Assembly (NCBI GenBank): GCA_030682615.1
Contig: JAUXNY010000084.1
Coordinates: 1-35,198 of the forward strand
Reading direction: 5' to 3'
Source of the DNA: Candidatus Aquicultor sp.
GTDB taxonomy: Bacteria > Actinomycetota > Aquicultoria > Aquicultorales > Aquicultoraceae
Length of the DNA: 35,198 nucleotides
Shown here: positions 4,364 to 12,714 of the stretch, piece by piece
How the letters are laid out: each line of letters starts with the position of its first letter
Position numbering within the stretch: the first letter of the stretch is position 1
Notes under the pieces: generated by a model
Told to the model about the DNA's origin: nothing
The model's database searches: none
What the model saw: only the letters and a program-made list of their open reading frames with translations
Program-made: the position numbers and the translations under genes

Positions 4364-5665
4364 TTGGTCTTGCCGGTTACATCAAAGGTCAACTCAAAAG
4401 GACACCTGGAAATAGGCGGCTGCGATGCGGTTGAACTCGTCAAAGAGCACGGCACACCGCTTTTTGTCATGGATGAGGAGACGATTCGCGGGCAATGCCG
4501 CGCCTACATGGCGGCGTTTGCGAGCAAGATCGATGATTTCGAAGTAATTTACGCAAGCAAAGCGTTTATAGCGGTTGCGATGTGCCGGCTGGCGCAAGAA
4601 GAGGGTTTGTCGCTGGATGTCATGTCTGGAGGCGAGCTGTACACCGCCATAAAAGCGGGTTTTCCCATCGCGAAAGCTTTTTTCCACGGCAACAACAAGA
4701 CCCCCGCTGAGCTCAACCTGGCGTTAGAGCATGGTGTCGGCCGAATAGTAGTCGACGGTTTTCACGAACTCGAACTGCTCGACAAGATAGCGGCTGAAAA
4801 AGGCATGACCCAGGATATTCTCCTGCGAATCACGCCGGGGATAAAACCCCAGACCCACAACTTTATTCAGACCGGCCAGCTCGACAGCAAGTTCGGGTTT
4901 GGCCTTCAGGATGGCTTGGCGATGAGCGCGGTCAAAAAGGCGCGGACGCTCGGCAATATTAATCTTAAAGGAATCCACGCTCATATCGGGTCGAAGATAT
5001 TCGAAATCGGCTCGTTCGCCTAATCGATAGAGATAATCATGGGTTTCGTCCGCGATATCAAGGAGGAGACCGGTTTTGTCGTGGGTGAACTAAATACCGG
5101 CGGCGGCCTGGGTATCAAATACAAGGCGGTAGATGAGCCGTCGACCATCGAGGAGTACGCGAATGTCATCGTCGACGGCGTCAAGGAGCAAGCGGCGCAA
5201 CTCGGGCTCGCGGTTCCGAGAATCATGGTCGAGCCCGGTCGCTCGATAGTCGCGAATGCCGGCATCACGCTTTATACGGTAGGCACCATCAAGGATATCC
5301 CAGGTATTCGCACTTACGTCTCGGTCGATGGCGGGATGTCGGATAACCTGCGCCCGATGCTTTATGGCGCGGTATACGAGGCGCTCCTTGCTAACAGGGT
5401 GGAAGACGAGGCGCACGCGCTGGTGACGGTGGCCGGAAAGCATTGCGAGTCGGGCGATATTTTGGTGCGAGACACGATGTTACCGTATCCGAAAGCGGGG
5501 GATATACTCTGCACGCCGGCGACCGGCGCCTATGGGTACATGATGGCCAACAACTATAATCGCCAGCCGCGCCCGCCGGTCATCATGGTAAAAGAGGGGT
5601 CGGCCCGCGTAATAGTCCGGGGTGAGACGCTCGATGACTTGGTGCGGCTCGATACCGGGCTTTAA
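4364..5665 (+). pseudogene. lysA: Diaminopimelate decarboxylase, interrupted by one in-frame TAA at 5021-5023 (either a genuine disruption or a base error)
   Basis: ORFs 4364-5023 and 5039-5665 are in the same frame; together they read as one LysA (VIYASKAF, HIGSKIFEIGSFA*SIEIIMGFVRDIKEETGF, GGGLGI, VEPGRSIVANAG, GKHCESGDIL, NYNRQPRP). Confidence 0.85.
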
Positions 5666-9342: not shown

Positions 9343-9447
9343 ATGGGTTTTTTTAAACGATTACTGCGCTCGTTTGTTCGGGCTGCGCTTATAGCAGTGA
9401 TTCTCTGGTTTATCGAGTGGCTTGTCGAGCCAAGGACCGATGCCTAG
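9343..9447 (+). CDS. Putative 34-aa single-pass membrane protein (below the ORF-track length cutoff)
   Basis: ATG...TAG reads MGFFKRLLRSFVRAALIAVILWFIEWLVEPRTDA: basic N-terminus, hydrophobic helix, acidic/polar tail; AGGA 8-11 nt upstream. Confidence 0.5.
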   Translation: MGFFKRLLRSFVRAALIAVILWFIEWLVEPRTDA

Positions 9448-9606: not shown

Positions 9607-10416
9607 ATGGGCGATAAAGCCCCTATTACAATTGCACACATCTCTGACCTGCATATAGGGTCACAATATTTTATACCGAACCTTTTGAGTAGAACCATAG
9701 AGGAGCTCAACGAACTCAAACCCGACGCCGTTATATGCACCGGTGATTTTACAGACGCGGGCTTTCGCCAGGAGTACACGACGGCGCAGATGTTTTTGTC
9801 GACGATAGAGTGCGAGCGTCGTCTCTTCATACCCGGCAATCACGATTCGAGGAATGTAGGATACGTCCACTTCGAGGAATTGTTCGGCGAGCGCGACCGC
9901 GTGCTCACGTTCGACCGTATGATGATAGTCGGCACCGATTCAAGCGAGCCCGACCTCGACAACGGCCGTATCGGCCGCGAGCGGTATGCTTGGTTGAAAG
10001 ATGCTTTCGAAGACGACAACTACTTCAAGGTTCTCGCTCTCCACCACCACCTACTTCCGATTCCCGGCACCGGTCGCGAGCGAAGCATGGTTTACGATGC
10101 CGGCGATTTGCTTGAAGTCTTGATCGATTGCGGCATCGACCTCGTTCTATGCGGCCACAAGCATGTGCCGTATGTGTGGAGGCTCGAGAGCCTGGTGGTA
10201 GTAAACGCGGGTACCGCTTCCAGCCTGCGGCTTCGCGGCAAGACGAAACCATGTTATAACATCATCGAGATAGATGAGCGGGACAACATAAAAATATACC
10301 GGAAATATCCCTACGGGGGTCGTGAGCTTATCGCCGAATTCTCGTGCGATGATAGGAATTACTGCAAGTGGGAGCGGGTTGAGGTTGATGTAGTATCGGG
10401 AGGTGGCCGGCCATAA
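9607..10416 (+). CDS. Calcineurin-like metallophosphoesterase
   Basis: Likely ATG start at 9607 after AAAGGAAAGG. Metal-binding motifs: HISDLHIG, CTGDFTDAG, PGNHDSR, ALHHHLLP, LCGHKHVP. Confidence 0.92.
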   Translation: MGDKAPITIAHISDLHIGSQYFIPNLLSRTIEELNELKPDAVICTGDFTDAGFRQEYTTAQMFLSTIECERRLFIPGNHDSRNVGYVHFEELFGERDRVLTFDRMMIVGTDSSEPDLDNGRIGRERYAWLKDAFEDDNYFKVLALHHHLLPIPGTGRERSMVYDAGDLLEVLIDCGIDLVLCGHKHVPYVWRLESLVVVNAGTASSLRLRGKTKPCYNIIEIDERDNIKIYRKYPYGGRELIAEFSCDDRNYCKWERVEVDVVSGGGRP

Positions 10417-11771
10417 CTCGGGCGATCGCGCTTATCGATGGCGAACACTATCCCCCGGTCATCAAGTCCGCTTTGGAAACCCTCGCGAATAATCATGACT
10501 ATAATGTGGTCGGAGCGGTCTTCGTCGGCGGTCTCGAGAAGCTATCCGAAAAGGGCGAGTTCGATGACCTTGGTTGCCCGGTTATCAAAGAAGAGAACGC
10601 TCTGACGGCAATCCTGACGGCGATTGAGCGTTTTGACCCGGAAATCGTTGTAGACCTTAGTGACGAGCCGGTCATAGGATATAAGGAGCGATTTTTCTAC
10701 GCCAGCCACGTGTTGGCGAAGGGTATCCCGTATATCGGGGCCGATTTTTGGTTCTACCCGCCGACTTTCCAGAAAGTCTTGAAGAAACCATCGCTTAGTG
10801 TGATCGGGACTGGTAAGCGCGTGGGTAAGACCGCGCTTACCGGCTTTATCTGCCGTCACCTCGATGAGGCGGGTTACAGGCCGGGAGTTATCGCGATGGG
10901 GCGCGGAGGGCCGCCCGCGCCGGAGTTGATAGAGGGTCGAAAAATCGAGCTGACCCCGGAATATTTGCTAAACCTGGCGCGCTCGGGCAAACATGCCGCC
11001 TCCGACTACTTGGAGGACGCCCTGACGAGCCGTATCACGGCAATCGGGTGTCGCCGCTGCGGCGGGGGGCTTGCCGGTCAACCGTTTATTTCAAATGTAT
11101 CCGCCGGCGCCAAACTCGCCAATGAGCTCGACATCGACCTCGTCGTTTTAGAGGGGTCCGGCTCGGCGTTGCCGCCGGTCCATGCGGACGCTCATATTCT
11201 TACAATCGGGGCCGGACAGCCGATAGACTATATCGATGGATACTTCGGGACATACCGGGTGCTCTTGTCCGATTTGGTTATCGTATCGATGTGCGAGCCG
11301 CCAATCGCGGACAAAGACAAGGTCGAGCAGCTAGACCAAGCGATAAGAAGTATTAAACCGGAAGCGAAGATAGCGCATACGATTTTCAGGCCGAAGCCGC
11401 TCCAGCCGATAGCGGGCAAACGCGTGTTTTTTGCGACAACGGCTCCGCCCTCGATGAAGGGCAAGCTCGCGTCTCACCTTGAAAAGACATACGATGCCGA
11501 GGTGGTCGGCGTAAGCACCAATTTATCTAACCGTAAATTGTTGCGTCAAGATATCGAAGCGGCCGAAGGGAAGTTCACGACGCTTTTGACCGAATTGAAG
11601 GCGGCGGCGGTCGATGTGGTGACAAGCATCGGTTTCGACCTGGGCCTCGAAGTCGTATATATGGATAACTTGCCCATTGTTATCGGGGGCGATGGCGACC
11701 TCGAAGAGTTGGTCACCTGGGTTGCCGACCGGGCAAAGGAAAACTTTACAGGCGGGAAGAGCAGTGATTAG
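10413..11771 (+). CDS. Cyclic 2,3-diphosphoglycerate synthetase-like protein (track start 10473 is probably too short)
   Basis: P-loop SVIGTGKRVGKTALTGFI; cDPGS-like sequence. The open frame upstream of TTG 10473 encodes ITRAIALIDGEHYPPVIKSA, with a conserved-looking N-terminal GEHYxPV segment. Confidence 0.78.
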   Translation: MTRAIALIDGEHYPPVIKSALETLANNHDYNVVGAVFVGGLEKLSEKGEFDDLGCPVIKEENALTAILTAIERFDPEIVVDLSDEPVIGYKERFFYASHVLAKGIPYIGADFWFYPPTFQKVLKKPSLSVIGTGKRVGKTALTGFICRHLDEAGYRPGVIAMGRGGPPAPELIEGRKIELTPEYLLNLARSGKHAASDYLEDALTSRITAIGCRRCGGGLAGQPFISNVSAGAKLANELDIDLVVLEGSGSALPPVHADAHILTIGAGQPIDYIDGYFGTYRVLLSDLVIVSMCEPPIADKDKVEQLDQAIRSIKPEAKIAHTIFRPKPLQPIAGKRVFFATTAPPSMKGKLASHLEKTYDAEVVGVSTNLSNRKLLRQDIEAAEGKFTTLLTELKAAAVDVVTSIGFDLGLEVVYMDNLPIVIGGDGDLEELVTWVADRAKENFTGGKSSD

Positions 11772-12714
11772 AGACAACGAGGACAGACCACAAATCGTAA
11801 TCAGCGACGACCAGCACGGCTTGCCTTTTTCGAAGGGATTGGTAGCAACCTCGTTAACGGCAACGGGTTTATCTCCGAGCCGGTCGCATAAGATAGCCAG
11901 GATTATCGAGCAGCATTTGATTAAGACCGGCAGGTTTTCGATAGGCGTTGAGGAACTGCGCCAAGTCGTTTACGAACAGCTTCTTTCACATGAGGGCAAA
12001 GGGTATGCCGATACTTACAGGCGTTGGCAGACGTTGCTCCATATCGACCGCCCGATGATAATTCTTATCGGCGGGACCACCGGTGTCGGAAAATCGACCA
12101 TTGCGACCACGCTCGCTCATCGCCTGGGAATCACTCATATCGTCGCTACAGATGCATTGCGCGAGGTCATGAGAATCGTTCTCTCGGAAGAATTGATACC
12201 GGCACTCCATGAGTCGACTTTCTTGGCGTATAAGGCGATTAACAGGCCAATCGAGGGCGACCCGCTGGTAGCGGGCTTTCGCGAGCAGACCAAGGTCGTC
12301 GCGGTAGGTGTGAGAGCCGTTGTGGACCGGGCGATCAAGGAAGGTCTAAACATGGTCATCGAGGGCGTCCACGTCGTGCCCGGTTTTATTCGAAGCCGGT
12401 TATCCGAAAAAGCGGTCATCATACCGCTGATAATAACGGTCGACAGCGAGGAGCTGCACCGGAGCCACTTCTATGTCCGAGACGTGCAGACCGAAGGCTC
12501 ACGGCCTTACGAGCGTTACCGCGAGAATTTTGAATCGATTCGCAGGATCGGCAAGTATATCGTAGATTTGGCCCACGAGTACGATATTCCGGTTTTGACC
12601 AGCCACAGCCTGGATAAGACGATAATCGCCGCCCAAGAAGTCGTATTGAATCGTGTTTTAGGGCCGGTCGAGGATGCCGTCAAAGGCTCGCTCGACGAGG
12701 AGCCAGAGGATTAA
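11764..12714 (+). CDS. 2-phosphoglycerate kinase-like protein
   Basis: Likely GTG start at 11764, overlapping the previous CDS by 8 nt. N-terminal ATP-cone-like segment, then MIILIGGTTGVGKSTIATTLAHRLGITHIVATDALREVMR and IEGVHVVPGFI. Confidence 0.82.
   Translation: MIRDNEDRPQIVISDDQHGLPFSKGLVATSLTATGLSPSRSHKIARIIEQHLIKTGRFSIGVEELRQVVYEQLLSHEGKGYADTYRRWQTLLHIDRPMIILIGGTTGVGKSTIATTLAHRLGITHIVATDALREVMRIVLSEELIPALHESTFLAYKAINRPIEGDPLVAGFREQTKVVAVGVRAVVDRAIKEGLNMVIEGVHVVPGFIRSRLSEKAVIIPLIITVDSEELHRSHFYVRDVQTEGSRPYERYRENFESIRRIGKYIVDLAHEYDIPVLTSHSLDKTIIAAQEVVLNRVLGPVEDAVKGSLDEEPED

Follow-up and report, generated by a model that had tools for sequence, protein, structure and literature searches.

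Cyclic 2,3-diphosphoglycerate (cDPG) was said in a 2023 structural paper to occur exclusively in hyperthermophilic methanogens (PMC10690619), and three genes in a contig of Candidatus Aquicultor sp. (Actinomycetota) raise the question of whether a bacterium encodes its synthesis, and for what use. The window, i.e., the whole stretch of 35,198 nucleotides that was analysed (GenBank contig JAUXNY010000084.1), comes, as a single contig, from a genome of 2.1 Mb, which genome scoring gave as 100% complete and 1.15% contaminated. Three overlapping genes on the + strand, encoding a phosphoesterase (PE), a cDPG synthetase (cDPGS) homologue and a 2-phosphoglycerate kinase (2PGK) homologue, span positions 9607–12714. 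The coordinates bore out the original prediction of an overlapping operon, with the start of cDPGS corrected to an ATA codon:

9607–10416, + strand: PE, calcineurin-like metallophosphoesterase, 269 aa (Metallophos match, E 9.2e-22)
10398–10406, + strand: Shine-Dalgarno sequence GGGAGGTGG, 6 nt before the ATA (read from the sequence; a GGAGG/GGGGG-type motif is kept in 11/11 family loci)
10413–10415, + strand: ATA, apparent non-canonical cDPGS start; forms an ATAA overlap with the PE stop TAA (10414–10416)
10413–11771, + strand: cDPGS homologue (full-length homology to solved cDPGS; overlaps the PE stop by 4 nt)
11764–12714, + strand: 2PGK homologue, 316 aa, GTG start at 11764 (NF003259, ATP-cone; overlaps cDPGS by 8 nt)

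This block is likely an intact, anciently conserved bacterial operon for making and, if PE is a hydrolase, unmaking cDPG, with cDPGS apparently starting at AUA. Its neighbours in the window include homoserine-pathway genes, a gene for a transaldolase-family protein and rho. A small ORF (9343–9447) coding for a hydrophobic peptide of 34 residues sits in the gap that precedes the operon. Farther upstream, a diaminopimelate-decarboxylase-like gene (4364–5665) is broken by an in-frame TAA at 5021–5023, where relatives have lysine; assembly error and recent damage cannot be told apart here.

cDPGS Homologue and Its Ligand Contacts

The product of the second gene matched the cDPGS of Methanothermus fervidus (PDB 8oru/8ork) over its full length (phmmer, residues 3–446, E 8e-138), with 49% identity in the alignment, and also PDB 9sxb (phmmer, E 5.5e-118). 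An HMM comparison with both enzyme families, proposed as a check in the original prediction, gave a match for one of the two proteins: 2PGK matched the NCBIfam 2-phosphoglycerate kinase model NF003259 with an E-value of 1.3e-96 and a score of 323.5 bits, short of the 343 set as curated cut-off, whereas cDPGS had no match among the Pfam or NCBIfam models and was assigned by phmmer. Chance resemblance is excluded by these E-values, together with that of PE, and by the recurrence of the block across Actinomycetota.

Ten cDPGS residues contacting ADP, Mg2+ or 2,3-diphosphoglycerate (2,3-DPG) are given in PMC10690619, and nine of them were mapped, P335 not being placeable by numbering. The contacts E42, K43, K135, R136, T140, D198, T343 and E394 were identical in 58/58 archaeal and bacterial sequences, and E295 (E305 of the published numbering) was E in 56 and D in two of the 58. 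The residues binding 2,3-DPG in the M. fervidus enzyme are E45, K145 and R146, with K46 nearby (PMC10690619), and their equivalents were unchanged in all 58 sequences. The second gene is a cDPGS homologue; homology fixes the family and not the substrate, and ATP-dependent cyclisation of 2,3-DPG is the predicted reaction. The window protein resembles the M. fervidus enzyme (8ork/8oru, PMC10690619) in its homology over the full length and in the retained nucleotide and 2,3-DPG contacts, but it is bacterial, shares its operon with PE and 2PGK, has an apparent AUA start in Aquicultoria and belongs to a clade of its own.

2PGK Homologue and Pathway Context

The third gene is a 2PGK homologue, for which the gene context suggests conversion of 2-phosphoglycerate into 2,3-DPG. 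Both an ATP-cone and a P-loop kinase domain (P-loop GGTTGVGKST) are present, and the match to the archaeal 2-phosphoglycerate kinase (NF003259/PRK04220) covers nearly the whole protein; the window protein differs from that family in scoring under the curated cut-off and in adjoining cDPGS. P-loop kinases were the nearest structures to its AlphaFold model (pLDDT 79), weakly, and a mevalonate-3-phosphate 5-kinase model also matched the protein, less strongly than NF003259. The score below the cut-off and the existence of family relatives with other substrates count against a cDPG operon. A Poribacteria homologue encoded beside cDPGS scores 374, above the NF003259 cut-off.

A cDPGS match was found in 47 of 60 related genomes, one of them weak. 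In the same 60 genomes both genes were present in 45, neither in 12, cDPGS alone in one (at a contig end) and 2PGK alone in two (partial), a co-occurrence with a Fisher p of 8e-10 when kinship is ignored. In Poribacteria (L055) and Omnitrophota (L061) the gene order is 2PGK, cDPGS, archaeal-type phosphoglycerate mutase and CBS protein, which supports a cDPG pathway, and Gemmatimonadota (L070) have 2PGK followed by cDPGS. The conserved ligand contacts, the co-occurrence and these independent operons with phosphoglycerate mutase uphold the predicted identities of genes 2 and 3.

In Bacillota (L048, L053) and Thorarchaeota (L064), the genes in the vicinity of cDPGS encode ABC transporters and a phosphoglycerate mutase. 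This mutase (L048:12247–13812, L053:6382–7962, L064:4379–6004) matches its model in swapped order, with model positions ~215–504 first, which suggests a circularly permuted iPGM. In four Bacillota loci (L048, L049, L050, L053), cDPGS follows a GntR/UTRA regulator and precedes an ABC transporter resembling 2-aminoethylphosphonate importers; the assignments were checked in L048–L050. No 2PGK was found in the one cDPGS-bearing Bacillota genome examined (G067), so that in this genome 2,3-DPG may be supplied in another way or cDPGS may use a different substrate; this case also weighs against a cDPG operon.

Distribution, Gene Order and Phylogeny

In a scan of genome contigs, at least 470 loci were found to encode cDPGS relatives, and 80 loci were kept; all come from genome assemblies, many of them metagenomic. 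Among the matches listed, cDPGS is present in Actinomycetota, Bacillota, Poribacteria, Omnitrophota, Gemmatimonadota, Coatesbacteria, Thorarchaeota, Methanopyri and Methanobacteriaceae, including Methanobrevibacter. Among the matches listed that come from named genomes, the closest cDPGS belong to Actinomycetota MAGs, one being Candidatus Aquicultor primus with 96% identity, which places the host in or near that genus. Viral cDPGS copies were looked for and none were found.

Within Actinomycetota, the order PE-cDPGS-2PGK recurs upstream of rho, mostly with a transaldolase-family gene and then rho. In the cDPGS tree the Actinomycetota form one clade with moderate support (81/88), the Methanobacteriota (100/100) and the Bacillota (100/98) form others, and the deep branching is not resolved. 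The original prediction had implied methanogen-type enzymes set in an otherwise bacterial genome, and a recent transfer from methanogens, or contamination of the contig, would be in keeping with an archaeal best solved homologue and with cDPG being classically an archaeal solute. The Actinomycetota sequences, however, do not fall inside the Methanobacteriota, and the separation of the two clades argues against recent transfer. The gene order relative to rho is conserved, the contamination score of the genome is low, and the operon has rho and homoserine-pathway genes at its sides in relatives as well, so that it is not an archaeal contaminant. Transfer or contamination is scarcely credible; the operon is an old one that keeps its synteny across Actinomycetota, and it is no recent archaeal import.

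When compared with open-licence papers, a predicted complete two-enzyme cDPG pathway conserved in the bacterial phylum Actinomycetota stands in contrast to the exclusivity stated in PMC10690619, and cDPGS occurs in at least five further bacterial phyla.

Start Codon of cDPGS

The cDPGS frame of the window contains no ATG, GTG or TTG in the stretch that leads from the preceding in-frame stop to the invariant DGEHY (IDGEHY) motif. The start at TTG 10473, called in the ORF list, was rejected since it would delete the conserved IDGEHY motif; gene callers restricted to ATG/GTG/TTG shorten cDPGS by 20 residues, as in that list. The homologous start appears to be the ATA at 10413, a putative initiation codon. 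At the aligned position, 20 of 25 loci of the same class have ATA, two have ATC, two have canonical starts nearby and one is unclear. All 11 loci of the window's family have ATA, with the adjacent codons varying. The locus L012 (G020) shows GCT or GTA only, neither ATA nor a canonical codon. Homologues outside the class often have ATG, GTG or TTG exactly at the ATA position, several as ATGA, GTGA or TTGA overlaps. The cDPGS gene thus has the sequence marks of a non-AUG gene, i.e., no canonical in-frame start, a Shine-Dalgarno sequence at the proper distance and a codon conserved among varying neighbours.

As a control, the aligned starts of five neighbouring genes were inspected under a lenient criterion, and 140/140 had a canonical codon; for cDPGS, the criterion left 14 of the 24 loci with ATA lacking a canonical codon, and the other 10 had one in a less likely place. 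The infC gene (IF3) of the same genomes served as a positive control for non-AUG start calls. In the window's family it has an ATC start, no canonical one and a strong Shine-Dalgarno sequence in 11/11 genomes (L157, G000:C97 1450–1947 region), and most of the other genomes read (among L145–L163) have ATC, ATA or ATT. Non-AUG initiation is therefore normal for this lineage, at least at infC, and the AUC start of the IF3 gene in the same genomes makes IF3-sensitive initiation of cDPGS plausible. Frameshifting from PE into cDPGS in place of AUA initiation was rejected, since several loci leave only two codons between the stop and the ATA and there is no conserved slippery sequence. A start survey covered one contig of 112 kb from another genome of the genus, and 4/62 conserved genes were flagged, namely cDPGS, rho (a false positive) and two others. 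A conserved frame of 316 codons (G002:C1:10794–11742) can be aligned with relatives for a further 34–36 residues before its first canonical start codon, which possibly marks another non-AUG start.

AUA starts are described for infC and ccpN in Staphylococcus, and in S. aureus reporters non-AUG starts gave ~10% of AUG and the ccpN AUA up to 30% (PMC13009471); a passage of the same paper cites pcnB of E. coli as starting at AUU. The cDPGS gene shares with these cases, as presented there, a conserved non-canonical start and a strong Shine-Dalgarno sequence, but it is a metabolic biosynthesis gene within an operon and overlaps the upstream stop. It is conceivable, although not the favoured view, that the ATA merely followed from drift of the stop codon it overlaps (TGA to TAA/TAG) and carries no regulatory meaning. 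Relatives outside the class have ATGA, GTGA or TTGA overlaps with TGA stops, the overlap in Aquicultoria loci is ATAA or ATAG, and TGA stops are uncommon in the Aquicultor genus (9/75 genes). A 4-nt overlap, however, cannot explain the ATC at this place in two deeper lineages (L020, L021) or the ATA in L024–L026, where the upstream stop is 5 nt away, and a small shift could restore a canonical start. Initiation at an AUA directly at the PE stop should hold cDPGS synthesis low, couple it to upstream translation and make it IF3-sensitive.

Proposed Function

In the proposed cDPG operon, 2PGK would convert 2-phosphoglycerate and ATP into 2,3-DPG, and cDPGS would use a second ATP to close an intramolecular phosphoanhydride, giving cDPG. 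Passages of PMC1224877 and PMC4302986 describe cDPG in methanogens as a phosphate, carbon or energy store and as a potassium counter-ion; by analogy, the product could serve here as a trivalent phosphate, carbon and energy reserve and as a counter-ion to potassium. The specifically thermal or osmotic role that had been suggested for the operon is unsupported. No reverse gyrase above the cut-off was found in the window's genome, and thermophily was set aside; an IVYWREL-based estimate on 20 housekeeping proteins was judged unreliable and kept out of this assessment. Judged from names and sources, many cDPGS hosts among the matches listed are probably mesophiles, e.g., gut Methanobrevibacter, and the AUA start is weak. 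Given the Actinomycetota pathway, the at least five further bacterial phyla and Methanobrevibacter, presence of the cDPGS gene should not be taken as a sign of heat adaptation.

The enzymes might act on phosphoglycerates and yet make no bulk solute: cDPG might be an intermediate or a signal at low level, or the useful product might be 2,3-DPG (e.g., as phosphoglycerate mutase cofactor). By the S. aureus reporter values given above, the AUA start should hold cDPGS low, which makes bulk cDPG synthesis somewhat less likely; probable mesophiles among the hosts and phosphoglycerate mutase genes beside cDPGS in other phyla point the same way. The strong Shine-Dalgarno sequence may nevertheless compensate, and a supply of 2,3-DPG needs no cyclising enzyme; this alternative has a considerable chance of being right, if somewhat short of even. 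A shift of the bacterial enzymes to another small phosphorylated substrate, with the cDPG name inherited by homology, is improbable. The ~49% identity to the archaeal cDPGS leaves room for it, as does the Bacillota arrangement of regulator and importer-like transporter without 2PGK; it is opposed by the invariance of the 2,3-DPG-binding residues in all 58 sequences and by the phosphoglycerate enzymes that are partners of cDPGS in Actinomycetota and two other phyla.

Phosphoesterase

With a cDPG operon as the preferred reading, PE is a candidate cDPG turnover enzyme, and cDPGS is a metabolic gene whose apparent non-AUG start is conserved. Its nearest solved relatives, both by sequence and by fold (model pLDDT 82), are the glycerophosphodiesterase GpdQ and the phosphodiesterase Rv0805. 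The metal-ligand motifs DLH, GD, GNH, HH and GHKH are retained and were invariant across 21 operonic homologues; PE differs from GpdQ and Rv0805 in its ~20% identity to them and in its operon linkage to cDPGS. Across Actinomycetota, PE lies directly upstream of cDPGS, and this linkage and the membership in the metallophosphoesterase family make it, tentatively, a candidate hydrolase of cDPG or 2,3-DPG; within the pathway it would break one of these down again.

A membrane-bound cDPG hydrolase activity, which PE would need if cDPG were its substrate, is known biochemically in Methanothermobacter (cited in PMC1224877). The passage of that paper names no gene for it, PE has no obvious membrane segment, and the PE homologues of archaea show no specific sister relationship with operonic PE. 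Homologues of ~41–50% identity are common in Methanobacteriota, but they are also present in 5/8 genomes without a cDPGS match and absent from six with one. A role of PE as a cDPG hydrolase shared with methanogens was not established, since the homologues track cDPGS poorly and are not specific sisters of operonic PE; this relationship and the breadth of the PE superfamily also count against a cDPG operon. It is unlikely that all parts of the fullest reading hold together, namely that cDPG metabolism is ancestral in deep Actinomycetota, that cDPGS is under an IF3-sensitive AUA start coupled to PE, and that PE is a cDPG hydrolase. A second PE copy, 49% identical, is encoded elsewhere in the window's genome (G000:C26:9512–10222, L127).
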